A stretch of 42,380 bases of DNA from a virus: positions 1 through 42,380 of the IMG/VR virus record IMGVR_UViG_3300045968_000157; one strand, given 5' to 3'. The notes under the pieces are model-generated. The model had not been told where the DNA came from and made no database searches. It worked only from the letters and a program-made list of their open reading frames with translations. A program made the translations under genes and the position numbers. This document shows, piece after piece, positions 1,974 through 37,256 of this stretch (within the stretch, counting starts at the first letter, position 1; each line of letters starts with the position of its first letter).

Positions 1974-2417
1974 TCAGTCGACGTTGATATCGAGTGCGCC
2001 AATCGCGAATTGTGGATTGATGCCGTTATTGATCACAAGGTCGGCATCCAGGTCCGCGTGGATCCGCAGGACGTCGCCTGTCGCAATCAGGCCGACACCG
2101 AGATGAACAACGGTGTCGGGCCCGCCGGCCGACATTTCGCCGAACTGAACCAGCGCGGCATTGCTCGCGTTGTTCCCTGACACGGTCCAGCCGCTGCCGT
2201 TTCTGGTCTGCGTCGGCCGCGCGTAACCGGTATAGGCGACTTCGTTCGACGTCAGCACCGTGCTGGTGTCATCGAGTGCAGACGTGTGCAGGGAAAGTTG
2301 AGAACTGCCCGCGCCTGAAGAGCCCGGCAAGCCTGTCGCGTCTCCAATATTGGCAATGCCGGTGTTATTGAAGAGCAAAAGCAGTAACTTATTCTCGAGA
2401 TCGTTAACAAGACTCAT
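1974..2417 (-). CDS. phage tail-associated protein, 147 aa
   Basis: It resembles a family of small phage proteins, often found with tail or fibre genes, that start with a short helix (LLLLLFNNTG), continue with a serine and threonine-rich beta region containing a YTGYARP motif, and end with strands of the type VHLGVGLIATGDVLRIHADL. The C-terminal half matches that pattern well. A GGAG ribosome binding site precedes the ATG. It follows the 273-residue repeat protein on the same strand. A minor virion role is likely by family resemblance, but I cannot place it precisely. Confidence 0.55.
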   Translation of the reverse strand: MSLVNDLENKLLLLLFNNTGIANIGDATGLPGSSGAGSSQLSLHTSALDDTSTVLTSNEVAYTGYARPTQTRNGSGWTVSGNNASNAALVQFGEMSAGGPDTVVHLGVGLIATGDVLRIHADLDADLVINNGINPQFAIGALDINVD

Positions 2418-2428
2418 GAGTCAAGCTC

Positions 2429-3250
2429 CTATTCTGTCAAGACTACCGACCGGCCAACGGTTAGCGAATCAACCCGGCGAACCTTCGATTCGGATTCAAT
2501 ATCCGCACCTCCGGCGACGAGCTCGGCTTCCCAGGGCGATCGCAGGAAAACAATCGATCGAATTGGCGTGAGCGAGAGAATTCCTGGCTTATCGATCCTC
2601 GGAAATATTCCGACGTTCGCATCGGTGAGTTTGCCTTCAGCATCAACTACGATGTTAACAACCGCACGCAAGACCCCCGGCGCGCGCAGAATGGCCGATC
2701 CGGTGAACGCAAGAGCCGCCGTCGATCGAAGAACGCCGGCCAGTTCTCCGTCCGCGCTGGTGGTAAAGGCAATACCTGCCGCAGCGGCGAGCCTTCCAAC
2801 TGCGGAGATATCTGCAAGTGGCGCGAAGGTCACATTCGCTGCCGCGGTGATCCGACCAGGCGCGTTTATGTCCGCCACGGTCGAAACGAAAATCTGCGCC
2901 GCTGCCGACATATCCTCGTTGCTGGCGCCCGTCAGATTCGCAGCGTTGCTGAAAATGACGCTGGCAGCCGCGCTGAGTTCCCCGGGCGCGTTGACGTCTG
3001 CGCTGGTCGAAAACGCCGCGGCCGCGGCCGCTGAAAGCTTCCCGGGCGCGTTTATATCCGCTATCGGCGAGAACGTAATTGATGCGGTGCCTGTCAGGCG
3101 GCCTGGTGCATTGACATCAGCGGCAGGAGAAAAGATGATCGTTGCGGTTGCCGACATATCGCCGCCGCCGGCTTCAGCGATCGGAACTTCCGGCTGCTGC
3201 TGCCCTAACGGCCCGCCCTGAATGTCTTCAGGGTTGATCTGGTGTGACAT
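2429..3250 (-). CDS. repeat fibre-like protein with MSHQINPED leader
   Basis: A 273-residue protein with three parts. Residues 1-19 (MSHQINPEDIQGGPLGQQQ) are identical to the start of the 839-residue tail hub at 32549-35068. Residues about 32-200 are roughly eight repeats of about 20 residues with the pattern L-x-A-x-A-x-I-x-F-S-x-x-A-D-I-x-A-P-G-R, an alternating pattern typical of a beta-stranded fibre stalk; the hub has the same repeats. The last 70 residues form a different end domain. It lacks the hub's C-terminal 550 residues, so it looks like a second, shorter protein built on the same leader and stalk. The start follows AAGGTGGTGA. Confidence 0.7.
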   Translation of the reverse strand: MSHQINPEDIQGGPLGQQQPEVPIAEAGGGDMSATATIIFSPAADVNAPGRLTGTASITFSPIADINAPGKLSAAAAAAFSTSADVNAPGELSAAASVIFSNAANLTGASNEDMSAAAQIFVSTVADINAPGRITAAANVTFAPLADISAVGRLAAAAGIAFTTSADGELAGVLRSTAALAFTGSAILRAPGVLRAVVNIVVDAEGKLTDANVGIFPRIDKPGILSLTPIRSIVFLRSPWEAELVAGGADIESESKVRRVDSLTVGRSVVLTE

Positions 3251-3258
3251 TCACCACC

Positions 3259-3432
3259 TTAAAACGACGATATGCCGTCGGAGTCGAAACCATCTGAGTG
3301 AAAGCACTTCTCACACACGATATGCCCGCAATACTCTATTTTCTTGGAATTAGGCTCTTGCGTCTGCCCACAGTACGCACAAATCCACTCCTCTTTCTGG
3401 ACCACATCTTCGGGGTTGATCTGGTGGCTCAT
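3259..3432 (-). CDS. 57-aa zinc-finger protein with MSHQINPED leader
   Basis: A short gene starting at the ATG at 3432, which overlaps the end of the upstream gene, and ending at TAA 3259. It begins MSHQINPED, the same nine residues as the tail hub and the 273-residue repeat protein, then changes to an unrelated body with C18-x2-C21, C35-G-H37, C40-x2-C43 and H45, a compact zinc-ribbon pattern. The leader codons differ from those in the other two genes. No known family is recognised. The shared leader suggests that all three proteins are sent to, or docked at, the same partner. Confidence 0.7.
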   Translation of the reverse strand: MSHQINPEDVVQKEEWICAYCGQTQEPNSKKIEYCGHIVCEKCFHSDGFDSDGISSF

Positions 3433-3656
3433 TGCGAGAGAATGCCTTTAGGTGGCGGACTGCAGTCGCCGATGAATAGGAGCTCATCGCACGCAACGGT
3501 AAAACGGTAAGTGGTCGAGCCGTCCGGGTTGTCGGTCTTGCTTAACATGCGGACTTTTCCGACAACCTCCAGACCGCAACGACCGCATATCATCGGCGTG
3601 TCAAGGCCATCCTGAAATTTGACCCTCCGAATTTCGAACTGATGTTTCTTGCTCAT
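3429..3656 (-). CDS. hypothetical zinc protein, 75 aa
   Basis: Unrecognised. It starts at an ATG overlapping the upstream stop (ATGA) and ends inside the start of the next gene, so translation is coupled on both sides. C24-x2-C27 and two later cysteines (ACDELLF and GDC) may bind zinc. The beta-type stretch between them (TTYRFTVACDELLF) suggests a small folded domain. Confidence 0.55.
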   Translation of the reverse strand: MSKKHQFEIRRVKFQDGLDTPMICGRCGLEVVGKVRMLSKTDNPDGSTTYRFTVACDELLFIGDCSPPPKGILSQ

Positions 3657-3876: not shown

Positions 3877-5607
3877 TTACTCTTGAAACTCCAAGTGAAT
3901 CGCGGCCGTGCGCATGCTCGTGCCAACACACACGATGTTGGCCTGATTCGCGTTGGTCTCTGCCTGCGTGAGATCGAAAGACCAGGTCGACGCATCAGAG
4001 CCAAACTCGTTTTCTGTTGGGGAATCGGTGACAGCGGCTTCTGTTCCTCCATCAAGAGAGATCGTGCAGGATACCGACGAGGCGCCGGTTGTGAACTGTC
4101 CGTTCGTGCCCACCGAGAAGAACGAGATACGATTCCCAGACGTTGCCGTGTTCTTCGGGAGCGTGATTGTTTTCGGGATATCCCCGATCTTCTTTCCGAA
4201 AGATCCGCTGACCGTGTGATCGGCTGTTAAGGCATCCCAGAAAACGTCCGAGGTGTTTTCCGCGCTGCTCAACTCAAGAGCGATGATGGCGAAGTTGTCC
4301 GTGGTCGCCGGAGTAATTGGCAGCGTCCTGTCCAGCGTCGCTAAACTCGAAGAACCGACGAAGTCCTCAATGTAGGCGAAGTACGCGCGATCGCTGTCGG
4401 AGACGTCGTAAACGATGATCGGCTTATTGTTGAAATAATCGTTGGCGTAGATGCCGTCAACGTCCAGGTGCACATGTGTCGTGTCGTTGCCGGTACCACC
4501 AACGCTGCCGTCGAGTAGGAACAAGTCTGAACCGCCACCACTGGTTGATAGATCGGCCAACTTTTTTCCAGAAGTTCCTGCCGTCGTCCGTCCGCTCAGC
4601 AGGTCTTCCCAGACAATATCGCCGACCTCAGATGAAGAAACCGTACAGACAAACGGCACGATCTGATAGACCGAGCCGCTATTCGGATTTTGCGCCCAAT
4701 CCGAATCTACCGTTGCGGTGTCGGTCGAGTTCACATAGTCGATGATGATTTTGTTTTGCCCTTTACCCTGACCGGACAGGATATGGACCAATGAACAATT
4801 TATTCTGTCGTCACCCGTGAAGTCCTCGGCGGACGCCAATTGAATCTGATTATTCCCAGTTCCAGCTCCCTGCGCCGTCCCGGTAGTCAACGGCTTCATG
4901 ACGTTGGCGGTGATTTCGGTGGTCACATCTGCCGCGATCTTAGCCGCGGTGAGTGCATCTGAAGCGATCGCGCCAGCGTCGATCGCACCGTCAGCAACCT
5001 CTGAGGCGCCGATCGCATTGGCCGCTAACTCTGATGCACCGATGGCGTCGGCCGCGAGCTCGTCAGCGCCAATGGCGTCCGTGGCAATTTTGGCGGCCGT
5101 GATCGCATCGCTGCCGATCTCAGCAGCGTCAAGAGTGCCGTTGACGTTCGAGAAATCAACGCCGGCTTCACCAGTCGAAGCGACGTCGAGAGTCCTGCCG
5201 GCCGTTGTCGGTGAAAGCCAGTTTGGGCGAATAATGAACCGTGTGCAGTGTGACTGCTCGACGCTGGAAACCGTAACCGCCCAATAAAAGCAATACGACT
5301 TGCCGTTCTCGTAGCCGTTCGCCGCGGAAAATGTGATCTGCTGTTGATAGAGACCATTCGTGTTCGTCGAGTCGAGAATGGTCATCGTGCCATTTGTAAT
5401 GGCCGTGCTTGTGGTCTCTTCGTAGATGCGGTATGTCGGCGCGGTGTCGCTCACACCGCCCGTTGTCGGATCCAGGACGGTCGCGTAGAACGTACCGACT
5501 TCGTCGATCTGATAGACGCCTGAGAAACTCTGGCTTAGTAAACTTACAGGCAGCGTTGCGACCAGGAGCGCGAGAAGTAAAAGTCTTTTCATCATAAGTC
5601 CTCTCAT
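3877..5607 (-). CDS. secreted fibre or collar-like protein, 576 aa
   Basis: The N-terminus is a Sec signal peptide: a short basic end, a leucine-rich core (LLLLALLVATLPVSLL) and then SQS. A beta domain follows (about 25-130, with VGTFYATVLDPTTGG) of a kind common in uncultured phage fibre or baseplate proteins. Residues about 150-220 are short decapeptide-like repeats of the type DAIGADELAA. The rest contains two copies of a W-E/D-x-L-x(9)-G-x-x-G-K-K motif. The ATG at 5607 overlaps the upstream stop; MM at 5595 has an AGAGGA site before it and may be the real start. The likely role is a surface-exposed fibre, but the signal peptide is odd for a protein assembled in the cytoplasm. Confidence 0.65.
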   Translation of the reverse strand: MRGLMMKRLLLLALLVATLPVSLLSQSFSGVYQIDEVGTFYATVLDPTTGGVSDTAPTYRIYEETTSTAITNGTMTILDSTNTNGLYQQQITFSAANGYENGKSYCFYWAVTVSSVEQSHCTRFIIRPNWLSPTTAGRTLDVASTGEAGVDFSNVNGTLDAAEIGSDAITAAKIATDAIGADELAADAIGASELAANAIGASEVADGAIDAGAIASDALTAAKIAADVTTEITANVMKPLTTGTAQGAGTGNNQIQLASAEDFTGDDRINCSLVHILSGQGKGQNKIIIDYVNSTDTATVDSDWAQNPNSGSVYQIVPFVCTVSSSEVGDIVWEDLLSGRTTAGTSGKKLADLSTSGGGSDLFLLDGSVGGTGNDTTHVHLDVDGIYANDYFNNKPIIVYDVSDSDRAYFAYIEDFVGSSSLATLDRTLPITPATTDNFAIIALELSSAENTSDVFWDALTADHTVSGSFGKKIGDIPKTITLPKNTATSGNRISFFSVGTNGQFTTGASSVSCTISLDGGTEAAVTDSPTENEFGSDASTWSFDLTQAETNANQANIVCVGTSMRTAAIHLEFQE

Positions 5608-6380
5608 TCTTCAACCTGCCAGAGACGGAATGCCGGGGAGACGCTGGTCGGCTTCAGTGAGAGCACGATGCCTCCTGCGCCAACAGGGTTCGCTGTATCC
5701 CAATCGGCCGAGATTGTTCCTGTGGATCCTGCCGCTGTCCTGGTTGCTTCAGAAAACGTTGTCAATCCGTCGCCGCCAGTCATGGACTCGTCGTAATGCT
5801 CTGTGTAGGCAGACGGATTCGTGCCGGTGAGTGTGACAGCGCCGTTGTTGTTGTCTTCCCCGGCGATGCAAACGATAACCAGCGCATTCGCGGACACTGT
5901 GCTGATTGCCGTGATACTGATCGGATCCGAGGTCGATGTGAATGGAGTTCCGATAGTCTCAAACGGATTGCCTGTCGCGATCGCGCCGCTGTAACAGGCA
6001 AGCATCGCGAATGTATCGCCGGTCGCTCCACTCTTGTTGAAAACCGGATTGGTCGCAGAGCCATCATGCCGAGACCAGAAAAACCAGTAGGACGCCGTTG
6101 TCGATCTCTCAACATTGGGATCGCAGGCGCTGGTGCATCCGGTCGTGATCTGCGTCCAGGTATCGCCAGACGCGTCGATAGTCGCCGTGTCATCGACGTC
6201 GCGAACGATCGCTTGGTAGATGAGAATGTCATTCGCGACGCAGCCGCCGGGGATCGTGATCGCGGAAAGGTCGGCACCTGTTGATGCCTGAATCGCGCTC
6301 GCAGCACGGAATGCCGGCGCCGCATAGACGGCCGGGACAAGCATTAGGAATGCGATCGCGGCGAATAAGAGTTTCTTCAT
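5604..6380 (-). CDS. secreted jelly-roll-like protein, 258 aa
   Basis: Sec signal peptide (MKKLLFAAIAFLMLVPAVYA, cleavage after A-x-A). The mature part starts with an ASTGADLSAITIPGGCVAND stretch and continues with TWTQ, ASYWFFWS and YSGAIATGNPFE blocks. This order is common in phage and bacterial surface domains with a jelly-roll fold, where a GWT-type core is followed by a YSGV-type strand. Six cysteines are present. It overlaps both neighbours by four bases, so it is part of one translationally coupled secreted set. A carbohydrate-binding or fibre role is inferred from the fold type only. Confidence 0.65.
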   Translation of the reverse strand: MKKLLFAAIAFLMLVPAVYAAPAFRAASAIQASTGADLSAITIPGGCVANDILIYQAIVRDVDDTATIDASGDTWTQITTGCTSACDPNVERSTTASYWFFWSRHDGSATNPVFNKSGATGDTFAMLACYSGAIATGNPFETIGTPFTSTSDPISITAISTVSANALVIVCIAGEDNNNGAVTLTGTNPSAYTEHYDESMTGGDGLTTFSEATRTAAGSTGTISADWDTANPVGAGGIVLSLKPTSVSPAFRLWQVEE

Positions 6381-6634: not shown

Positions 6635-8346
6635 GGCCTCACAAATAGCCTCAGCTTCGGATTGCCATTGCCTCCGGTCTCGCCAGGCTGACTGTTTTCG
6701 ATTAAGGGATGCGGGAACTCAAACGGGATATAGTCGGCCGTCATCGGCCAGGCATCGCCGGCACAGATGAACAACTGGCCATCGCTTGAGTCTTCGTTGT
6801 CCGATCCGTCGAGGTTCTTTAATTTCCAATTTGGGCCCGTGTCGGTTTCCCAATACGCCGTGCCTGACGTGCAGGTGCTCGGGCGGTTCGCGTGTGTGCC
6901 GAATCCGGTTCCCGTTGTCCCATCGAAAGGCGTGTCATCGTCGGATTGCGCAGTGCCTTCTTGCTCGTAATACTCCACATCCTTTCTAACATAGTCTTCT
7001 GCACTGTCCATCTGAAGGCCCATGCAACCATCTGGACTAAAATTACTTACAGAAGTGTTGATATAGGAGGGGGCTGTACCTGTATTCGCAAAGACATAGA
7101 TAGGCTCAAGGTCCATGTCTCTTGAGGTATTACCAGCAGGCACGGCCCCAGTAGTCCAACCCCACCCGGCCTGTGAGGGAATAGGCATGCCAGTGTAGCC
7201 CTGACTGTTAGCCGCTGTGCCCCAGCAACCGTAGTCGGTAACCCCCGGAGTCGCTGCTCTATGCAGGTTCCACTGCTCGTAGGACATAGCTGCTTTATTG
7301 GGTGTTTCTCCACACTCATTACCCCAAGCGGCAGTGTCGTAACACGGGATGATGTTGTTGTGGATCCGTGAGGTGCCGCCGTGAATCGAGATGAACCCTT
7401 GACCGTTCATGTCCTGGCTGCCGGTTCCTTCACCGACATATCCAGTCATCGTGCAGATCAGGATGTTGTCTCTTATAAATTCATTGCCATAAATCTCTGA
7501 GGATCTCGCGGCCCAAGGCTCGGTGTCTGACCCGTGGTGAATGAAGCCAGAATTGATAACGGTGTTGTATCGAAAGACGAGCCGGCCGCTCTCCTTGACG
7601 TCGATCATTTCGTTGAAGCGATTAAGCGTATTGCCTTCAACGAACAGACTCTGGGTGCCGTCAGCGTCTGCGTCTCCGAAGTTGGAAGCGGAAGTCCAAC
7701 TACCGGCAACATCAGCAGCCGCCATTCGTATGAACGACTGATTGTTCTGGCAAGGGCCAGAGTCGGAGATGTGCCCGACCATGTTGAAGCCGGTAATAAC
7801 GCCTCTATTCGGTGCGTGAATCAGCGCGCCAATGAATCCATTCGGCGGCGGGCCCAGCGACTTCATGCCCTTCAGCACAATAGGCACTCCATCAGGCTCC
7901 GGGTACATGAAAATCACAGCCGCGGGATTCGCGTGCGTTGTATCTCCAGTGTGGTTCCAGAGAAACGTATTACTTCCGTGCCCGTCTCCGCCAAAATGAA
8001 CCGCACCATTCGCGTTTTCGTGGATGACGATCGTCGATTCCGCATCCCCACCATCAACCAGCCCAGAGAACGCGTCGTCCTTGATCTCAACGGTTCCGCT
8101 CGGAACAATCCAGACGTGCTTGGTGATGACAAACTGCGTGTCCATCGACATCACGCCAGCACTGGTGACGGTTATTACGGCGGGAGTAGAGTCGTCGGCG
8201 GCGAAGTTGTCATGGCAATCGATGAGTGCCGCCCATGTGTCCGCCGCCATGGTGTGCGAATCCGTAACGGAGCAATCGTTGCTCTGCGCGAACGCCGGAA
8301 CGGCAAATAAAATTAACCAAATGGTTAAAAATATTTTCCGTTTCAC
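6631..8346 (-). CDS. secreted parallel beta-helix protein, 571 aa
   Basis: Sec signal peptide (MKRKIFLTIWLILFAVPAFA). The mature part has the periodic short strands of a right-handed beta-helix, of the kind found in pectate lyases and tailspikes. It is a clear paralogue of the 546-residue protein at 30871-32511: both share a TWAxLxxCH start, VINSGFIHHGSD against VVNSGLILHGTD, and GGTSRIHNNIIP against GGTALIHHNEIP. It lacks the Pro-Thr linker and Ig-like domain found at the end of that paralogue. A glycan-binding or depolymerising surface protein is the best guess. It overlaps the genes on both sides by four bases. Confidence 0.7.
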   Translation of the reverse strand: MKRKIFLTIWLILFAVPAFAQSNDCSVTDSHTMAADTWAALIDCHDNFAADDSTPAVITVTSAGVMSMDTQFVITKHVWIVPSGTVEIKDDAFSGLVDGGDAESTIVIHENANGAVHFGGDGHGSNTFLWNHTGDTTHANPAAVIFMYPEPDGVPIVLKGMKSLGPPPNGFIGALIHAPNRGVITGFNMVGHISDSGPCQNNQSFIRMAAADVAGSWTSASNFGDADADGTQSLFVEGNTLNRFNEMIDVKESGRLVFRYNTVINSGFIHHGSDTEPWAARSSEIYGNEFIRDNILICTMTGYVGEGTGSQDMNGQGFISIHGGTSRIHNNIIPCYDTAAWGNECGETPNKAAMSYEQWNLHRAATPGVTDYGCWGTAANSQGYTGMPIPSQAGWGWTTGAVPAGNTSRDMDLEPIYVFANTGTAPSYINTSVSNFSPDGCMGLQMDSAEDYVRKDVEYYEQEGTAQSDDDTPFDGTTGTGFGTHANRPSTCTSGTAYWETDTGPNWKLKNLDGSDNEDSSDGQLFICAGDAWPMTADYIPFEFPHPLIENSQPGETGGNGNPKLRLFVRP

Positions 8347-8969
8347 TGCCGGATGATTCCTCGAGGTGTGGTGTAGCCTGTTCCCCCGCCGCCGCCTGCC
8401 GCCGTGTAGTTCACCTTGATATAGGTTTGCGTGACCCGGATTTCATCGCCAGAACCGACGTTGTCCGACAGAACGAAGAATCTCTCGATTGGGTTTGATC
8501 CCGTGCCTTCAACATCTGCCTCCGTCCACGCCGAACTGGTGTCAGGGTTTGTCGTCCACGTGTTGCAAATTTGAGTGTAGGAGCCTGTGATGCTATTGAT
8601 TTGGGCAGAGTCATAGTTCGAACCATTGATTCGAAGGCTGAGGTACATGCTCGCTTCCGCAATCTCCTTCACGACAACGCACACTTCAACCGATGTGATA
8701 GCTGAAGAAGTGATACTGAAAGCCGTGTAGGTCCAGTCCTGAACATCAAAACTCGAAGCGGACTGGATATAGTCTGTGTCTCCGTCGTCGCTTATACCGG
8801 AACAATCGCTGGCAATAGTGTCGGTGACTGCGCTCACCTTCGTGGAGCCAGCGCCCAAGGTCCATCCATCGAACGGACCCACAGCCGCAGGGCTTCTGCA
8901 TTGAGAATCGGCAAATGCCGGAGTAACGAACAAAACCGCGAGAATCACCAGTAAGGGAATTTTTCTCAT
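8343..8969 (-). CDS. secreted hypothetical protein, 208 aa
   Basis: Sec signal peptide (MRKIPLLVILAVLFVTPAFA). The mature part is serine and threonine-rich and beta-type, with blocks such as WTYTAFSITSSAITSVEVCV and a late ETYIKV-like strand (RVTQTYIKVNYTA), resembling small jelly-roll domains on phage and bacterial surface proteins. It ends with a glycine-rich segment and TTPRGIIRQ. Overlaps both neighbours by four bases. Confidence 0.6.
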   Translation of the reverse strand: MRKIPLLVILAVLFVTPAFADSQCRSPAAVGPFDGWTLGAGSTKVSAVTDTIASDCSGISDDGDTDYIQSASSFDVQDWTYTAFSITSSAITSVEVCVVVKEIAEASMYLSLRINGSNYDSAQINSITGSYTQICNTWTTNPDTSSAWTEADVEGTGSNPIERFFVLSDNVGSGDEIRVTQTYIKVNYTAAGGGGGTGYTTPRGIIRQ

Positions 8970-21420: not shown

Positions 21421-21749
21421 AGCTCTCCGATTTGAGACCGTGCGACAGCTGCGCTGGACCCGTTAACGGAATGTTCTACGTGCTGCGTTACAGCATCGCG
21501 TTAATCAATCCAGGAGAAGGCAACGCCGTTCTTGGCATGATGCAAATGTTCGGAGGCAGCCTGAAACTCGCGGAGGCTATGGCGCCACGTGCCGATTGCG
21601 TGAAGGTCGCGATGGACGACCCGGAGCATAAAGAACTGATGACCGAGCTTTTCATTTGCAGTCGCTGCTTATTGAAGCCGCTTCTCTTACCGCTGCTATC
21701 CGAAAAGCGCCAGCACAAGGAGTCCGATGAAGCTGCAGATCGCGGATAA
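21417..21749 (+). CDS. zinc-binding hypothetical protein, 110 aa
   Basis: C9-x2-C12 near the start (RPCDSCAGP) and a second pair late in the protein (ICSRC) probably share one zinc ion. Between them a hydrophobic helical region (AVLGMMQMFGGSLKLAEAM). It ends inside the start of the ATPase gene (23-base overlap), so the two are coupled. Confidence 0.55.
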   Translation: MKLSDLRPCDSCAGPVNGMFYVLRYSIALINPGEGNAVLGMMQMFGGSLKLAEAMAPRADCVKVAMDDPEHKELMTELFICSRCLLKPLLLPLLSEKRQHKESDEAADRG

Positions 21750-23451
21750 CCTTGCCCTTCCGATTAAAGCTGTCACCGAGAAGATGGCGATGCTCGGTCG
21801 AACAGGCAGTGGTAAGACCTATGCCGCGATGAAGCTGGCAGAGTTGATGCTCGACGCCGGCGCGCAGATTGTCGCCATGGATCCAGTCGGCGCCTGGTCC
21901 GGCTTGCGCATCGGCGGGCACTGGAACGTTTACATCTTTGGAGGCCTGCGAGGCGACTTCCCTCTCGAGCCTACAGGCGGAAAGCTGATGGCAGATCTCA
22001 TCGCAGACCGCGGCATCTGTGCCGTGCTCGACGTCTCGCAGTTCATCCGATCCGATCAGGTGAGATTCGCTTCCGATTTTATCGAGCGATTTTTCAACCG
22101 TAAGAAGGCGGCGCCGTCTGCTGTGCATCTATTTCTTGAGGAATGCCAGGAGTTTGCCCCGCAGAATTCCGGGCCCAGTGAAGCGCACATGCTGCATCAC
22201 TTCGAACGAATGTGGAAACTCGGCCGCGGATTCGGCATCGGCGGGACTCTTTTGAGTCAGAGACCTCAGGAAGTGAATAAGAAGGTGCTGAATCAATCGG
22301 GAACCTTGTTCGTCTTTCAGATGACTGGACCTCAGGAACGCAAGGCGATCGGCGACTGGACAAACGAACACGGCATCACCGATGACATTCAATCGCTGCT
22401 GCCGCGGCTGAAAGTCGGAGAGCCGCACGTATGGAGCCCAACGTTTCTTGAGACGTCGAAGACTGTTCGTATTCTTCCGAAAATCACCACAGACGTTTCG
22501 AGTACTCCGGAAGTTGGAGCCCGCATCAAAGAACGGCCACTGTCCTCGATCGACGTCGAAACGCTGAAGTCCGACATGGCTGCCACGGTTGAGCGTTCGA
22601 AGGCTGACGATCCAAGGGAGCTCCGCAAGCAGATCGCGGCGCTCAACAAGGAAATCGTTGCGTTAAAGCAACAACAGCCGAAGACGGAGACAAAGGAAGT
22701 GCCGGTGATTACCGATCACGATAAGCAGCTCCTGTCGTCCAGCGTTCAGTCGATTCAGGAGTCCGTCAACAAGTGTTATGACAGCGTGCGGGCGTGGTTC
22801 AGCGGAACTCAGGCTGCGATCAATGACATTTCCGAGATCGTCAAAGGCGTCGGCGCAACCGTGCGATGGCGGCCAGCTCCTGAGGTCCCATTTGACTATC
22901 GCAAGCCTGTACGCGAGACGCAGCAGCGGGTAGTGGTGCATAAAACACCGGCCGTCCTGCATAAAACGGTCAGACCTGCGCATGATTCCGAGCTCGGCAA
23001 ATGCGAGATTGCGATCCTGCGCGTACTCGCCCAGTTTCCTGAAGGATGCGAGGCGGGGAAGCTTGCTCTCCTGGCGGGCTATCGCTTCAGTGGTGGCTTC
23101 CGAAATGCCCTGTCTACACTGCGGCAAGCCGGACTGATGGAAGGCGCCAATTCCGAAGTGATGCGCATCACTGCCGCCGGCGAGGCCCGTGGGCCGTTCG
23201 AACCGTTACCCGTCGGCCAGGAACTCCAAAGCTACTGGCTGAACCATGCCTCGTTTGGTCTCTGTGAAAAGAAGATTCTGGAGAAGTTGTTTGAAAACCC
23301 TCAAGGGCTGACCGCCCAGCAGCTGTGCAAGCTGACGGGGTATGAATTCAGCGGTGGCTTTCGTAATTCCCTGTCGACTCTCCGCACGGCTGGCGTGTTG
23401 GTTGGTCGCAACGGCGACGTGATGCGTGCCAGCGATGAACTGTTTGATTAA
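21727..23451 (+). CDS. HerA/FtsK-type ATPase with duplicated winged-helix domain
   Basis: 574 residues. Walker A GRTGSGKT at 24-31, Walker B VHLFLEE at 133-139 and LLSQRP at 175-180 fit the HerA (DUF87) branch of the FtsK/HerA DNA-pumping ATPases. A coiled coil (about 295-330) follows. The C-terminus holds two copies of one winged-helix-like unit, marked by GYRFSGGFRNALSTLRQAGL and GYEFSGGFRNSLSTLRTAGV. HerA works with a nuclease (NurA) in archaea; here a Cas4-like nuclease is encoded nearby. AAGGAG lies five bases before the start. The role may be DNA end processing, segregation or defence. Confidence 0.75.
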   Translation: MKLQIADNLALPIKAVTEKMAMLGRTGSGKTYAAMKLAELMLDAGAQIVAMDPVGAWSGLRIGGHWNVYIFGGLRGDFPLEPTGGKLMADLIADRGICAVLDVSQFIRSDQVRFASDFIERFFNRKKAAPSAVHLFLEECQEFAPQNSGPSEAHMLHHFERMWKLGRGFGIGGTLLSQRPQEVNKKVLNQSGTLFVFQMTGPQERKAIGDWTNEHGITDDIQSLLPRLKVGEPHVWSPTFLETSKTVRILPKITTDVSSTPEVGARIKERPLSSIDVETLKSDMAATVERSKADDPRELRKQIAALNKEIVALKQQQPKTETKEVPVITDHDKQLLSSSVQSIQESVNKCYDSVRAWFSGTQAAINDISEIVKGVGATVRWRPAPEVPFDYRKPVRETQQRVVVHKTPAVLHKTVRPAHDSELGKCEIAILRVLAQFPEGCEAGKLALLAGYRFSGGFRNALSTLRQAGLMEGANSEVMRITAAGEARGPFEPLPVGQELQSYWLNHASFGLCEKKILEKLFENPQGLTAQQLCKLTGYEFSGGFRNSLSTLRTAGVLVGRNGDVMRASDELFD

Positions 23452-27504: not shown

Positions 27505-27687
27505 ATGACTAACCCGACGGACGCGGAGAAGCTAAGGAAGCTGGCGGACGCATTCGCCAGCGAGGATGACGGTTTGAATCCTTGGAGTGATCCACAGGCC
27601 GCCGCTCATGACCTTTACATGATCGCGGATCGGCTGGAGGTGCTGGACAAGGCTTTTGAAGAGGGAAGGCTGGTGTGGCATGAGTAG
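27505..27687 (+). CDS. hypothetical protein with MTNPTDAE start, 60 aa
   Basis: Helical protein starting MTNPTDAEKLRKLADAF, followed by DGLNPWSDPQAAAHDLYMIA. Paired with the next gene, whose start is nearly the same at both protein and DNA level. Function unknown. Confidence 0.5.
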   Translation: MTNPTDAEKLRKLADAFASEDDGLNPWSDPQAAAHDLYMIADRLEVLDKAFEEGRLVWHE

Positions 27688-27871
27688 CCCGACGGACGCG
27701 GAGTTCCTGCGAAACTTAGCCAGAGACCTTACGCCTTTGACGCCGTTCGCGCAGGGCGCAGGTGATGAACTTGAGCGGCTTCGCCGGATCGCGCGAAACC
27801 TTGAACGACTCGAAGAGGATGAAGAGGACCGTAGGCACCCCGGATTGTCATGGAAAGAGGCAACGGAATGA
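27680..27871 (+). CDS. hypothetical protein with MSSPTDAE start, 63 aa
   Basis: ATG at 27680 inside the end of the upstream gene. Starts MSSPTDAEFLRNLARDL and continues as a charged helix. A paralogue of the preceding gene at the N-terminus, different afterwards. Function unknown. Confidence 0.5.
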   Translation: MSSPTDAEFLRNLARDLTPLTPFAQGAGDELERLRRIARNLERLEEDEEDRRHPGLSWKEATE

Positions 27872-30870: not shown

Positions 30871-32511
30871 TTACTTCTTCACCGTTACGGTGACCGATTG
30901 GCTCGCGGTCAAGCCTTCTGCATCCTTGGCGACTGCGCGAATCGTCACCAGTCCTTTACCTTTGTAAGGCGCCGTGTTCCACGAGTAGGTCATCGTGGAG
31001 AAGGCGCCAGCTTTGACAACTTGGTTGTTAACAGAGAGCTCCAGCCAAGCAACGCCGGTATCGTCAGAAGCCGCCACTGAAATCGTGAAAGTCTTCGTTG
31101 TGATCAATTGCCCTGAGGCTGGGGCCTTTAGGGTCACAGTTGGCGCTGCATTAGGAATTGGCTCCGGTGTCGGAGTCGGTGTCGGTACGGGCGCCGGAAC
31201 TGGCGTCGGCGTAGATCCATTCACCAGCGGGTGCGGGTACACATAGGACGAGAAGTTCGCTGGTGCCGACAGATAGTACTCGCGATTCGGCTTGATGTAA
31301 TCGACGACGCTCGGCGCTCCAGATCCGCACTCGTTGGGATATTCCATGATCGCCGGCGAGTCGTGATTCCCTGTTCCCGTGTTTCCCCACAACCGAATCG
31401 GTTCGAGATCCTGCAGGACGTTTGAGCCGAGACCGCCTGGGTTGGTACCGCCTGCCGTGAATCCCCAGCCCGGAATGTGAGGGGCCGGATAGCCCGCTCC
31501 GGGAGCCGTCGTTGTAGACCAGCAGGGATAGCCGCCAGCTCGCCGACGGATGTTCTCATACCAGAACGCTACCTCTGCCTTATCCCCCCACCAGCCATCT
31601 TGAACGTTGGGGATTTCGTTGTGGTGGATTAAGGCCGTACCGCCGCGAATCCCGATAAAGCCATTCATGTTGACCGGCATTTGCGGATCGCTGCACGTGC
31701 CGGTTGGTGTCAAATCGCGCACGAAGGTGACGTAAGAGATCTGCGTCAATCGGGCTCCGATAATTCCGCTCGTATCGGTGCCGTGCAGGATCAATCCAGA
31801 ATTGACGACTGTTCCATGGCGTAAGACTGTGCGGGCGTTGTCATCACCATCGTAAGCTTCCAGCATGTTTCTGATGATGAAGTCTTCAACGTAGAGAGCC
31901 TGATCCCCGTTGACGTCCGCTGAGCCGTACACGCCTGGGGTTTTCCACGCGTCAATCCCGCCGCCCGTCCACTTGTGCCGAAGGTAAGAGGAATTGTTGA
32001 AGCACTGCGGCCCTTCAACGACACCGTAACCATTGTTGCCCGAGAGTAAGCCGCGGTTGGTTCGAACGTAGAAGAAGTTTCCGCCCGTGCCTGCCATGTG
32101 GTAGTTGACGCCAGTGATGATGACAGGCTTACCGTTAGGCGCGTAATCGATGCCGATGACGCCGAAAGTGTTCTGATGAACACCGGTCCCCTGCCGGACG
32201 GTGAGTCCGTTCAAGCGAATGGAGCCCGCAGTCGACTCCGTGAACGTGATCATCTCGCCAGCTAGGCCGTTGGTGTTATCCGTGACGGTGACGCCGTCCG
32301 CAGCAATGGAAACGTTCTTCGTGATCGAGGTTGACGTGGTCACGATGTAACTGCCTGGCGAGACCGTGATCCTGTCGCCCTGTGCGGCGATCGCATGACA
32401 GGCCGCGAGATCCGCCCAGGTTGACGCCGTCAGATTTGGCGACGCACCGGAACAGGCGGCATACGCGCGTGCGGACAACAACAAGAAAACGATGGCAATT
32501 CTGTATTTCAT
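30871..32511 (-). CDS. secreted beta-helix protein with Ig-like end, tailspike-like
   Basis: 546 residues: a Sec signal peptide (MKYRIAIVFLLLSARAYA), a right-handed beta-helix body (about 25-430), a Pro-Thr linker (PTPVPAPVPTPTPTPEPIP) and an Ig-like domain at the end (about 460-546: AASDDTGVAWLELSVNNQVV). It is the paralogue of the 571-residue protein at 6631-8346. It lies between the tail hub and the lysis genes, where tailspikes usually are. The signal peptide suggests export, perhaps to modify the host surface, rather than assembly into virions. Confidence 0.7.
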   Translation of the reverse strand: MKYRIAIVFLLLSARAYAACSGASPNLTASTWADLAACHAIAAQGDRITVSPGSYIVTTSTSITKNVSIAADGVTVTDNTNGLAGEMITFTESTAGSIRLNGLTVRQGTGVHQNTFGVIGIDYAPNGKPVIITGVNYHMAGTGGNFFYVRTNRGLLSGNNGYGVVEGPQCFNNSSYLRHKWTGGGIDAWKTPGVYGSADVNGDQALYVEDFIIRNMLEAYDGDDNARTVLRHGTVVNSGLILHGTDTSGIIGARLTQISYVTFVRDLTPTGTCSDPQMPVNMNGFIGIRGGTALIHHNEIPNVQDGWWGDKAEVAFWYENIRRRAGGYPCWSTTTAPGAGYPAPHIPGWGFTAGGTNPGGLGSNVLQDLEPIRLWGNTGTGNHDSPAIMEYPNECGSGAPSVVDYIKPNREYYLSAPANFSSYVYPHPLVNGSTPTPVPAPVPTPTPTPEPIPNAAPTVTLKAPASGQLITTKTFTISVAASDDTGVAWLELSVNNQVVKAGAFSTMTYSWNTAPYKGKGLVTIRAVAKDAEGLTASQSVTVTVKK

Positions 32512-32548: not shown

Positions 32549-35068
32549 TCAAGCCGACAGCTTGATCAGGGTGAGGCGCAGCCCTTTCTTCTTTGGCATC
32601 ACTTCCGCCTCGGTTTTTATGATCCGGAACACCGCGTTGCTGTAGCCGCCCGTACTGGAGATCCCCTGCCGGTGGGTCACGCCCACGTAGCGATTGAGAT
32701 CTGCCGCGGCGTTCAAGAGGTACTCTGCAGGCAATTCGAATTCACAAAACTGGACATGCTCGGAAGCCAACATCGCGTTGACGGTCGCAATGCTGATGGC
32801 CGTGTCTTCATCCGCCACATACTTCAGGGGAACAACTTTCCCGGGCGCATCTGGAGTGTCTTCGTCGCCGAGCTCAAGCGTTGCTGTGCCGCCGGCGTCG
32901 TAGGCCAGCCCGAACGTTCGTGAAGTGTGCGGCAGCGGGAAGGTCCGCGAGATGTGCTCGATTGGAAATGTCCGCTGAACAGGAATGGATGCCGAGCCGT
33001 TCGAGGTAACCGCAAATTTCTCCAGCGTGTAGTTGAAAATTCGCTGGTAGTCGATCGAGGACCAAACATCGCGATTGCCGTACACGTTGAAAGAATTGCG
33101 AACGATCTCACGCTCGCTGACTTCAAAGGCCGGCGCGCCAGGGTTTGCGGCGATTGAGAGCGTCAAGAGGAATGACCCGATCTTATTTTCCGTGGTCATC
33201 CAGATGTAATGCAGGTGAGACTTGGTGATCTCGTTCAGGATATCGAGAACTCGCTGATTGATGTCGCCGGTGATGCACCAGGCGCCTTTGTAGGGCGCCG
33301 AGACGCCTTCAAGCATGTTCGCGTCTGCCGCGTCGACCGACGCCGTCCACAGAGCCGCGTCGAAATCACCCGAGACCCAGCTGCCGCCGTAGTTCAAGAT
33401 GAAGTGCTGTGCCTGCTCGACGAGGTTTTCAATCAGCGTGCCGCCGGAGGTTCCGTCATCGGTGATCCCCTTCGCGAGCACCGTCACTTCGACTTCGTTC
33501 GGGCGATCTGCGTCGCGCGGATCGGCATCGAAGTCGATCACCTGCATCGTGATGCCTGTGTAGATCGCCGTGGTCACCGTGAAGCCAGATGACTGCACGA
33601 CGCCATACTTGTAGACCGTGTGCACCTGCTTGCACACGTGGCCGGCGACCAGGTACCGCCATTTGCCGCCGGCGTCGGCGTCGATCAGCGTGCACGGAAT
33701 CGGTCCGGCGCCAGGCATGTTGCCGCCGTTGGTGGCCATGTCGCCGTAGATGACGTTGATGAGCGTTTCCGCCTGACCTGAGGGAAGATCGGGGAACGTG
33801 ATCGGATTCACGCTGCCGATGGTCTCGCGCAGTGTCTTCTTGAATCGATCGATGCCGGCGTCTTTATGTTGGAACGTGACACGGCCGCGCGAGTCGATAT
33901 TCCAATCCTCGAGGGAGCCGACAAACAACTGGCGAGCCTGGGCGAGGCCGTCCGCGATCCTCGCAAACCGGAGATACCGCTTTCGTCCACGGAACCGATA
34001 ACTGTATTTCAGGATCGAATACTGCCCGTCAAGGTTGTACTCCTCGCACTCCCAGGCGCCGACGCTGTAGGGTTCAGAACCAGGACCGATGGAACGAACG
34101 ACGCGTCCTGCATTGAGCAGCCCTTGCTCGTAATCGATCTCCGGCGTGCGAAGACCTTCGAAGCTTTTATAGATGCGGAGTAGTTCTTCACCGTTCGCCT
34201 CGAGTGCGAACTCGGTCAGCGTGGTGAATTCCTCCGGACCCGCAGCGACTGCATTCCCCGCAGTGAACGCACCGGTTGAAAGTGTGATTTGCGCCGTTGC
34301 GGCCAGGCGGCCGGGCGCGCTGACGTCGGCTGCCGGCGAAAAGACGATGATCGCCGTCGCGGTGAGATTGTCATTGTCTTCTGCGGAACTAAGATCTGCG
34401 GCCGTGGTGAACGCGATCGACGAGGTTGTTGCCAGCCTTCCAATCGCAGAGACGTCCGCAGAAGTTGAGAACGTGACACTGGACGTGCAGGACAGCTTGC
34501 CTGTGGCAGAAACGTCGGCCGAGGTGGTAAACGCAACCGCGCCTGCTGCTGAAAGTTTTCCAGGAGCATTGATATCTGCGGCCGTCGTGAAGGTGACGCT
34601 GGCTGTCGTCGTAAGCTTGCCAGGCGCATTGATGTCTCCTGATGCGGAGAACACGATCGACGCAGTCGCCGAGATGTCATCGTCGGCCGGCGATACCAGA
34701 TTCGCGGCAGTCGAGAATGTGACCTGTGCCGTCGTGGTGAGACGACCAGCCGCATTGATATCCGCTGTCGTCGAAAAAGATACGTTGGCCGTTGCGGCGA
34801 GTGTGCCGGCGGCGTTGATGTCGGCGGCGGTCGAGAATGCCGCCGCGGCCGCGGCGGTCAGTTTTCCTTGAGCGGAGATATCCGCGAGCGGAGAGAAAGT
34901 GGCGAGTGCGGTGGCGGAGAGCTTGCCTGGGGCATTGATGTCCGCAGCCGGCGAGAAAACAATCGACGCCGTTGCGGACATTGAACCGTCTTCGGTGAAA
35001 GGCGGTTCAAACTGCTGCTGACCGAGTGGACCCCCTTGGATATCCTCCGGGTTGATTTGATGACTCAT
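32549..35068 (-). CDS. tail hub/baseplate-like protein with stalk repeats and MSHQINPED leader
   Basis: 839 residues. Residues 1-19 are the shared leader (MSHQINPEDIQGGPLGQQQ). About 30-275 is an array of some 12 repeats of about 20 residues (pattern L-x-A-T-A-x-I-x-F-S-x-x-A-D-I-N-A-P-G-K), also present in the 273-residue protein. The rest is a tail-hub-like domain with YRFRGRKRYLRFARI, LFVGSLEDWNIDSRGRVTFQ and DILNEITKSHLHYIWMTTEN. Position downstream of the tape measure fits a tail-tip protein. GAAGGG five bases before the start. Confidence 0.65.
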   Translation of the reverse strand: MSHQINPEDIQGGPLGQQQFEPPFTEDGSMSATASIVFSPAADINAPGKLSATALATFSPLADISAQGKLTAAAAAAFSTAADINAAGTLAATANVSFSTTADINAAGRLTTTAQVTFSTAANLVSPADDDISATASIVFSASGDINAPGKLTTTASVTFTTAADINAPGKLSAAGAVAFTTSADVSATGKLSCTSSVTFSTSADVSAIGRLATTSSIAFTTAADLSSAEDNDNLTATAIIVFSPAADVSAPGRLAATAQITLSTGAFTAGNAVAAGPEEFTTLTEFALEANGEELLRIYKSFEGLRTPEIDYEQGLLNAGRVVRSIGPGSEPYSVGAWECEEYNLDGQYSILKYSYRFRGRKRYLRFARIADGLAQARQLFVGSLEDWNIDSRGRVTFQHKDAGIDRFKKTLRETIGSVNPITFPDLPSGQAETLINVIYGDMATNGGNMPGAGPIPCTLIDADAGGKWRYLVAGHVCKQVHTVYKYGVVQSSGFTVTTAIYTGITMQVIDFDADPRDADRPNEVEVTVLAKGITDDGTSGGTLIENLVEQAQHFILNYGGSWVSGDFDAALWTASVDAADANMLEGVSAPYKGAWCITGDINQRVLDILNEITKSHLHYIWMTTENKIGSFLLTLSIAANPGAPAFEVSEREIVRNSFNVYGNRDVWSSIDYQRIFNYTLEKFAVTSNGSASIPVQRTFPIEHISRTFPLPHTSRTFGLAYDAGGTATLELGDEDTPDAPGKVVPLKYVADEDTAISIATVNAMLASEHVQFCEFELPAEYLLNAAADLNRYVGVTHRQGISSTGGYSNAVFRIIKTEAEVMPKKKGLRLTLIKLSA

Positions 35069-35378: not shown

Positions 35379-35624
35379 CTACTTCGAATCCTTCTCAATC
35401 AGTACCAGCTTCAGCGTTTGTGGATCGGAGCCTGGCTTGATTTCGTAGTCGGCGAGATTGATGGAGTGATGCTGTTCCAGACGTTGATGGACCCTCGAAA
35501 GTACGGCTTCGTCAGCGTCAGCGACCTTGTCCATTTCAATCGCTGCAGCTCTGGAGTTTGCTGCCTTCTGCATCCAGGTTTTCAGTTCGTGACTCTCGCT
35601 TCGATCCAGAATTATTTCTGCCAC
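35379..35624 (-). CDS. small tail-region protein, paralogue pair member 2, 81 aa
   Basis: Starts MAEIILDRSESHELKTWMQK and contains HHSINLADYEI then TLKLVLIEK. The upstream gene has the same plan (MAEIILD, FSINIADYEV, TLKLVEK), so the two arose by tandem duplication. A helix separates the two beta parts. Possibly tail accessory proteins. Confidence 0.55.
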   Translation of the reverse strand: MAEIILDRSESHELKTWMQKAANSRAAAIEMDKVADADEAVLSRVHQRLEQHHSINLADYEIKPGSDPQTLKLVLIEKDSK

Positions 35625-35638
35625 TTTGTTTCCTCCGT

Positions 35639-35869
35639 TTACACCTTCTCCACAAGCTTCAGCGTATTTTGGTCAACAACTCTGACTTCGTAATCGGCGA
35701 TGTTTATGGAGAACTGGATACCAAGTCGCTGTAAGAACCGATTGCGGGCAGCAGCATCCTTTGTCGATCGTGATGCTGCTTCGGCGCTGGACCGCTGGGA
35801 TAGCGTCGCGTCGGCCATGAGTTTTCTGAGTGTGTAGCTGTCGATGTTATCGAGAATGATTTCCGCCAT
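35639..35869 (-). CDS. small tail-region protein, paralogue pair member 1, 76 aa
   Basis: MAEIILDNIDSYTLRKLMAD at the start, IQFSINIADYEV and NTLKLVEKV at the end. Paralogue of the next gene downstream. Located just after the large fibre gene. Confidence 0.55.
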   Translation of the reverse strand: MAEIILDNIDSYTLRKLMADATLSQRSSAEAASRSTKDAAARNRFLQRLGIQFSINIADYEVRVVDQNTLKLVEKV

Positions 35870-35888: not shown

Positions 35889-37256
35889 TTAAACGACCTG
35901 CCAAACATCGATGGACTGAGGCGACGAACTGTGGTCGAGATAGTTCAAGGTGACCGGATTGAAGGCCTGGCCGCCCTGGCTCAGTGACCCGCTAATGCTG
36001 CCGCCAGCCACACTGCTGGCAGTCAGGCTACCGCATTCAATGTCGGTGTCCGCGTTGTCGGCAGCGTTGCGGAACTTCGTAACGCCAGCGGTGCTGATGT
36101 TCAGCTTCACACCGTTGCCACTCAAAAAGACTGCGGAACTGACATCGAGTTCGGCAAGGAATGCCTTGTTTGCGGTGACGTCGCCCGAAAGGTTGAGAGA
36201 TGTTCCTGACGCCGCGCCAATGTTGGGCGTGACCAGTGCGGGCGATGTTGCAAAGACAAGCGCGCCGCTGCCGGTCTCACCAGTAACGGCTGCTGCAAGA
36301 TTCGCACTGGACGGCGTTGCCAAAAACGTCGCTACTCCTGAACCGAGACCGGACACACCCGTTGAGATTGGCAGGCTCGTGCAATTGGTGAGTACTCCTG
36401 CCGACGGTGTTCCCAAGTTTGGAGTGACGAGCGTAGGAGAATCCGCAAACACTGCGGCGCCGGAACCGGTTTCGTCGGTCAAGGCACTGCGCAGATTCGC
36501 GCTGCTCGGTGTCGCAAGGAATGTTGCGACGTTCGAACCCAGGCCGCTTATGCCTGTTGATACCGGCAGCCCTGTGCAATTCGTCAGGACGCCCGCCGAC
36601 GGCGTTCCGATGTTCGGTGTGACCAACGTCGGCGAATTCGAGAATACGACGTTGGCGGAACCCGTAGCGCCCGATGATGTGACGCCTTCAACGGTGAGGT
36701 GCCGTATGGCGAGATCTGCGAGTCCGCCGCCGCCTGCCTGATTGATCGAGAGAACCAGACCGCTACGTGAAACGCTGACGTGGGAGTTTGTTCGTCCGCC
36801 GAAGTAAGCCAGATCGCCGAGCAGCTCCAGTTTCTGGATTGTCATCACGCGGCTGGCATCGAATACCGGCACCTCTTCGTAGGTGACGTTTACCGCGTAG
36901 GATTTATCGACTGTGTCGTTATTGGTGACCTTGAGATGCAGTTCCCCGGTTGCGTCCTCATCCTCGTAGACGGAGACAAATATCGCAGCCGGGCCTTCCG
37001 CCGGCGTGCCCGAGGAAAAGTCCATCGGCTCATACACGTTGCCGAGTACGGATTTCCACTTGCCACGCAGGTCGGACCCTGAGAGCGAGTCTTTGCTGAA
37101 AATCTCGGCGTTCGATTGGCCGCTGCCGGCAGAAGGAACGACCTTCAGCTTCGTAATGTTGAAGGCATTCGGAAGGCCGGTGATGTGAAGACTCGCAGTG
37201 CCGCCTGATGCCGTCGCTGATCCCGTGCTGCCGCTTGCGGTAAGTCCTCGTGCCAT
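35889..37256 (-). CDS. tail fibre protein with 65-residue repeats
   Basis: 455 residues. A glycine and serine-rich N-terminal beta domain (about 1-140) is followed by two repeats of 65 residues and a partial third, marked by SPTLVTPNIGTPSAGVLTNC, GLGSNVATFLATPSSANL and ETGSGAAVFA. This repeat is well known from phage tail fibres. A short C-terminal end domain follows. Encoded directly after a tail-tip protein, so it should be part of the virion tail. Confidence 0.75.
   Translation of the reverse strand: MARGLTASGSTGSATASGGTASLHITGLPNAFNITKLKVVPSAGSGQSNAEIFSKDSLSGSDLRGKWKSVLGNVYEPMDFSSGTPAEGPAAIFVSVYEDEDATGELHLKVTNNDTVDKSYAVNVTYEEVPVFDASRVMTIQKLELLGDLAYFGGRTNSHVSVSRSGLVLSINQAGGGGLADLAIRHLTVEGVTSSGATGSANVVFSNSPTLVTPNIGTPSAGVLTNCTGLPVSTGISGLGSNVATFLATPSSANLRSALTDETGSGAAVFADSPTLVTPNLGTPSAGVLTNCTSLPISTGVSGLGSGVATFLATPSSANLAAAVTGETGSGALVFATSPALVTPNIGAASGTSLNLSGDVTANKAFLAELDVSSAVFLSGNGVKLNISTAGVTKFRNAADNADTDIECGSLTASSVAGGSISGSLSQGGQAFNPVTLNYLDHSSSPQSIDVWQVV

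Follow-up and report, generated by a model that had tools for sequence, protein, structure and literature searches.

A nine-residue N-terminal peptide on three proteins of an HK97-type siphovirus, conserved by selection in a paralogous pair and possibly used for docking

Why would a virus open three of its genes with the same nine residues? Within a 42,380-base virus record (hereafter the window, meaning this whole stretch of DNA), a first-pass annotation had pointed to the peptide MSHQINPED at the start of proteins of 839, 273 and 57 amino acids and proposed that selection keeps it as a docking or sorting tag on different cargo. The occurrence itself was confirmed: the peptide is found exactly three times in the six frames of the window, at 35068(-), 3250(-) and 3432(-), and each time it occupies the first possible start of its open reading frame (Table 1). 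All three N-termini are certain, because in-frame stops lie just upstream (TAG directly before the ATG at 35068, TGA directly before the ATG at 3250, and a stop five codons upstream at 3432). The further observation that the leaders of the 839- and 273-aa proteins agree over 19 residues (MSHQINPEDIQGGPLGQQQ) was likewise borne out, and when the 1,725 possible starts in the window were compared, no unrelated pair approached the leader match. All three reading frames read as coding when codon usage was compared with shifted frames, with a weaker signal for the 57-aa gene (0.14 per codon, versus -0.36 and -0.61 in the shifted frames). The shared MSHQINPED start is real and not a product of chance. 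One additional candidate relative, the stretch HSINLADYE in an 81-aa protein, agrees at 4 of 9 positions, is one among many six-frame matches of this kind, and was taken as chance.

Table 1. Features of the leader-bearing genes and their immediate neighbours, in window coordinates.
Feature	Position	Strand	Basis
19-residue leader MSHQINPEDIQGGPLGQQQ of the 839-aa protein	35012..35068	(-)	six-frame motif scan, codon comparison
Ala/Thr/Ser-rich 20-residue beta repeats (SATASIVFSPAADINAPGKL type) of the 839-aa protein, in blocks of five with acidic linkers	34277..34981	(-)	translation; homology to the 273-aa protein
C-terminal ~570 aa of the 839-aa protein, candidate tail-tip or hub part by position after the tape measure	32549..34276	(-)	no homologue found
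Identical 19-residue leader on the 273-aa protein	3194..3250	(-)	six-frame motif scan, codon comparison
20-residue beta repeats of the 273-aa protein	2618..3157	(-)	low-confidence all-beta model
Non-repeat C-terminus of the 273-aa protein	2429..2617	(-)	translation
Nine-residue leader MSHQINPED on the 57-aa protein	3406..3432	(-)	ATGA overlap of its start codon with the TGA stop of the 75-aa gene
Zinc-finger-like body of the 57-aa protein, C18-x2-C21 ... C35-G-H-x2-C40-x2-C43	3259..3405	(-)	RING-like profiles under curated cut-off
CxxC-containing 75-aa protein, whose gene lies immediately upstream of the 57-aa gene and overlaps it	3429..3656	(-)	ORF, profile and codon-usage analysis
Gp80 family member of 147 aa (podophage GP4 fibre I), encoded immediately downstream of the 273-aa gene	1974..2417	(-)	PF23140

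The two longer proteins provide the clearest view of what is being conserved. Their leaders are identical at 19/19 residues, with 13 of the 18 informative codons differing, all silently. The silent-to-replacement count that had been proposed as a check on the leader thereby stands at 13 to 0 in this pair, whereas the 190 remaining codons of the alignment show 57 silent and 88 replacement differences (Fisher p = 1.3e-5, with the leader boundary set where 839/273 identity ends and the repeat units perhaps aligned out of register). Identical codons occupy 5 of 18 positions, against 8.1 expected from independent codon choice, so that silent sites in the leader are saturated. Under random change ~23% of differences would be silent, and 14/14 silent has a probability of ~1e-9; at the mean identity of the alignment, 19 consecutive matches would arise with a probability of 3e-5. 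At the nucleotide level, 16 of 57 positions differ, nearly all of them third positions, and the 40 nt upstream are unrelated; from this silent divergence and the dissimilar upstream DNA it follows that amino acids rather than nucleotides are conserved. Strong purifying selection on the leader peptide is well supported in the 839/273 pair, for which the earlier statements about widely differing codons and a selected peptide both hold.

The first-pass description of three different proteins carrying different cargo is accurate for the 57-aa zinc protein, whose body is unrelated, but not for the 839- and 273-aa proteins, which are paralogues with the same repeat domain. These two are homologous over ~210 aligned residues (E 2.7e-52), a region that comprises the identical leader, a short linker and tandem 20-residue beta repeats of the SATASIVFSPAADINAPGKL type, which are ~54% identical between the proteins and grouped in blocks separated by acidic linkers. 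A single-sequence AlphaFold model of the 839-aa body was uninformative and discarded (pLDDT 33); the model of the 273-aa protein (pLDDT 54) has all-beta repeats at ~55-67 and a leader below 50, and a Foldseek search with it returned no match at E <= 0.001. The name 'tail hub' that had been given to the 839-aa protein is supported by gene order, after the tape measure, and by no profile, PDB or fold match: profile and PDB searches gave no hit to known hubs, and the pLDDT 33 model is too weak for a fold comparison. Distant hub relatives were also sought with the motif WRYLVAGH, but the match fell in a chance frame and was set aside. Profile searches identified no receptor-binding protein or depolymerase family in the 839-, 273- or 57-aa proteins.

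The window is an incomplete record, and same-virus contigs extend it at both ends. One of them, L027, overlaps its first 7,083 bases at 99.9% and adds 11.4 kb to the left, encoding small and large terminase (the latter a clear match to phrog_9, E 1e-123), portal, head maturation protease (phrog_80, E 5e-44) and major head protein; a second, L009, adds 3.5 kb to the right, with ORFs at the positions expected for connector and tail-tube genes. The tape measure gene lies within the window, ~3 kb upstream of the 839-aa gene. On the basis of the L027 head genes, the L009 ORF placement and this tape measure, the virus is an HK97-type siphovirus. There are six differences between the window and L027, four of them in the Gp80-like gene (2250-2336), and the leader-bearing genes are identical.

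At the other locus, the 57- and 273-aa genes stand directly before that Gp80-family gene, which matches its family at E 5.5e-10 and 40.1 bits, above the curated cut-off of 27. The GP4 member of the family is a fibril that links the adhesin to the tail nozzle collar (PMC13243795). In several other phages (L031 and L034 included) a Gp80-like gene is also followed by repeat-rich or fibre-like proteins, although no leader and no clearly related repeats were seen there. A tail or collar appendage role for the 273-aa protein is therefore plausible, given its neighbour, the known role of the GP4 fibril and the repeat or fibre genes found beside such genes elsewhere. The Gp80/GP4 fibre-I-like genes in L030-L034 come from records of spring-water, Pseudanabaena and Microcystis phages that carry podo-, sipho- and myovirus labels; several of these genes precede long repeat-rich or fibre-like proteins, and they perhaps represent an exchangeable appendage module.

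The 57-aa protein has the nine leader residues in common with the other two proteins and nothing beyond them. Its body scored under the curated cut-offs of RING families (Prok-RING_4 at 23.1 bits versus 27), and a PDB search returned only LIM and RING fingers with weak E values. Compared with the 273-aa gene, its leader is identical at 22 of 27 nt, including a 20-nt block with one mismatch (CACCAGATCAACCC(C/T)GAAGA), and differs at codon 2 (AGC/TCA), codon 7 (CCC/CCT) and codon 9 (GAT/GAC). The first of these differences is imposed by the overlap of the ATG with the TGA stop of the upstream 75-aa gene (CAATGAGC, ATGA), because codon 2 must then start with A, leaving only AGY for serine; two free silent differences remain, and the probability that both would be silent by chance is 0.02-0.05. 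Five silent differences separate the 57-aa leader from that of the 839-aa gene (probability ~1e-4), and all of this change can be on the 839 branch. The 57- and 273-aa genes are adjacent, with starts 182 nt apart, and their similarity begins exactly at the ATG and ends after D9, with none upstream. Selection on this copy of the leader is weakly supported, and the claim of widely differing codons was overstated here. Similarly, the assertion that the leader is not a recent DNA copy stands for the 839/273 pair, but for the 57-aa gene a local copy of the 273 start is possible, because of the two free silent differences and the 20-nt match with one mismatch.

Our preferred reading, held tentatively and at somewhat below even probability, is that the leader serves tail or appendage repeat proteins as an N-terminal docking (anchor) peptide. 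An ancestral gene encoding the leader and the 20-residue beta repeats would have been duplicated, or a homologue acquired from a related phage; one copy, located where the tail-gene cluster ends, would have acquired a large body by fusion and become the 839-aa protein, and the other would have become the free repeat protein next to the GP4 fibre-I-like gene. Both copies have kept the leader unchanged while their repeats drifted, which would reflect binding to one common partner or to one kind of particle site. The 57-aa zinc-finger-like protein, encoded directly upstream of the 273-aa gene, may then have borrowed the opening nine residues of this leader and occupy the same site, whether as a small constituent of the virion or as an assembly factor. 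We infer that the leader-bearing proteins are virion proteins, that the leader binds something, and that the zinc protein uses it.

Support for the docking reading comes from the silent-only divergence of the leader, the unambiguous starts, the conservation of peptide rather than DNA, the structural gene context, and the short docking peptides known on phage spikes. It is weakened by the restriction of homologues to this virus, which precludes a cross-genome comparison, by the possibility that the 839/273 leader serves folding or capping of the repeat domain instead, by the small number (two) of free silent differences that separate the 57-aa copy from the 273 start, and by AlphaFold models too weak to show the state of the leader. 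Docking, as one half of the original proposal, is thus plausible and has described precedents, but a sorting tag for unrelated cargo was not demonstrated.

These precedents qualify the earlier remark that no described phage tag has this sequence: the sequence is indeed absent from the literature examined, but the kind of peptide is known. In K1E, K1-5 and SP6, conserved 7- and 11-residue N-terminal peptides dock two spikes, and receptor-binding proteins of many Klebsiella phages carry similar 'conserved peptides' of down to seven residues; such peptides dock spikes to an adaptor or to the first spike (PMC6872550). The internal proteins of T4, otherwise diverse, have a common conserved N-terminal capsid targeting sequence for entry into the prohead core (PMC3012670). 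Like the spike peptides, the leader is a very short N-terminal peptide that stays constant in front of varying bodies, although the 57-aa protein alone fits this description in full, as the 839- and 273-aa proteins also have their repeats in common. Unlike them, it belongs to a siphovirus, where it precedes two repeat paralogues and a zinc mini-protein rather than spikes or depolymerases, and has no sequence relation to them, and no adaptor or T4 gp10-like partner was recognised among the proteins scanned, which were part of the gene set. Because the bodies behind the leader cannot be recognised as receptor-binding proteins, we make no claim that it belongs to the spike-peptide class. The T4 sequence resembles the leader as a single N-terminal sequence on several diverse proteins of one phage; it differs in serving prohead entry, whereas the genes considered here are tail or appendage associated. 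Neither the MSHQINPED sequence nor its presence on a zinc mini-protein is described in the literature examined.

A close rival to the docking reading is plain paralogy combined with a local copy, a serious possibility that we nonetheless place clearly under even. Here the leader would cap the repeat fold of the 839- and 273-aa proteins, which are homologous well past it, and the nine residues of the 57-aa protein would be a comparatively recent copy of the 273 start with no tag function. The adjacency of the 57- and 273-aa genes, the 20-nt match with its single mismatch, the forced AGC serine codon and the two silent differences are all consistent with this account. Against it, the two genes are unrelated upstream and after codon 9, such that the limits of a copy would have to fall precisely on the coding start and on D9, and silent differences in two of seven free codons are also compatible with an old divergence. 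A stronger form of the docking reading, in which the leader is an address peptide on structurally unrelated proteins and the zinc mini-protein competes for or completes the same tail docking site, we consider unlikely.

We regard as quite improbable that the leader is a T4-like signal for capsid targeting, or a propeptide of that type, bringing proteins into the prohead and then being removed by the head protease. The diverse internal proteins of T4 have only their N-terminal targeting sequence in common (PMC3012670), and a head maturation protease is encoded on L027. However, the leader has no recognisable cleavage site, and one carrier follows tail genes while another lies beside a fibre gene. 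Moreover, the family that the protease matches is that of the head-maturation proteases of HK97-like phages, which act on the major head protein. Highly improbable, too, is that the leader targets a host protein (for stability, membrane association or host takeover, for example) rather than the virion; such a role would suit a zinc mini-protein without a recognisable structural family, and the virion location of all three proteins is one that we infer, but the 839-aa gene follows the tape measure within the run of tail genes, and the 273-aa gene has a fibre-family gene as its neighbour. A DNA- or RNA-level element at the gene starts, such as a translation control or recombination site with the peptide incidental, is barely conceivable: the exact placement of the match on three start codons speaks for it, but the silent divergence of the 839/273 leaders and their unrelated upstream sequences contradict it.

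The distribution of the peptide says little for or against a selected tag. IMG/VR was searched with degenerate DNA patterns for HQINPED, M-x-x-QINPED and NPEDIQGG, which besides fragments of the same virus returned chance-level matches only, mostly internal or out of context; in GTDB genomes five motif matches were found, approximately the chance number estimated from codon degeneracy and collection size. A motif confined to one genome had been named as evidence against a selected tag, and in IMG/VR and GTDB it is limited to this virus, but the result says little because the carrier proteins have no relatives in the same collections. For the 839-aa protein, the tape measure and a 255-aa protein, searches of IMG/VR for relatives yielded same-virus fragments only (99.97-100% identical), and tblastn of the 839-aa protein, its body, the 273-aa protein and the leader against 50,697 phage records gave nothing, the body and leader even at E 10, with a low-complexity filter that may hide Ala-rich repeats.

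Short N-terminal docking peptides are a way for phages to plug new parts into an old particle, and a siphovirus docking peptide that is also carried by a small zinc protein would extend this principle beyond spikes; if the stronger form is true, one tail docking site would be filled by alternative partners during assembly. The 839/273 pair is a clean example of selection fixing a leader rather than the body behind it. A sober view is that these observations concern one orphan virus and one paralogue pair.

Several other features of this genome were recorded. Besides the separate phrog_9 large terminase, a 574-aa protein at 21727-23451 (+) matches a terminase large-subunit family (phrog_2666, E 4.6e-20), and glycosyltransferase-like and endonuclease VII-like genes (L027:2920-4365 and 2358-2849 (-)) are located in the head-tail region, past the gene for the major head protein. 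Signal-peptide-like N-termini, which are unusual for tail proteins, occur in the structural part at 3877-5607, 5604-6380, 8343-8969 and 30871-32511 (-), with starts such as MKRLLLLALLVATLPVSLLSQ, MKKLLFAAIAFLMLVPAVYAA and MKYRIAIVFLLLSARAYAA, and one of the structural-region proteins with such a start contains a bacterial Ig domain. A 455-aa fibre-like protein at 35889-37256 (-) has repeats (GSGAAVFADSPTLVTPNLGTPSAGVLTNCT) of a type common in tail fibres. Between its gene and a 95-aa gene that precedes the 839-aa gene lie adjacent paralogues of 76 and 81 aa (35639-35869 and 35379-35624 (-)), both starting with MAEIILD and without a family match. A second adjacent pair of tiny paralogous ORFs is found at 27505-27687 and 27680-27871 (+) (MTNPTDAEKLRKLA / MSSPTDAEFLRNLA).
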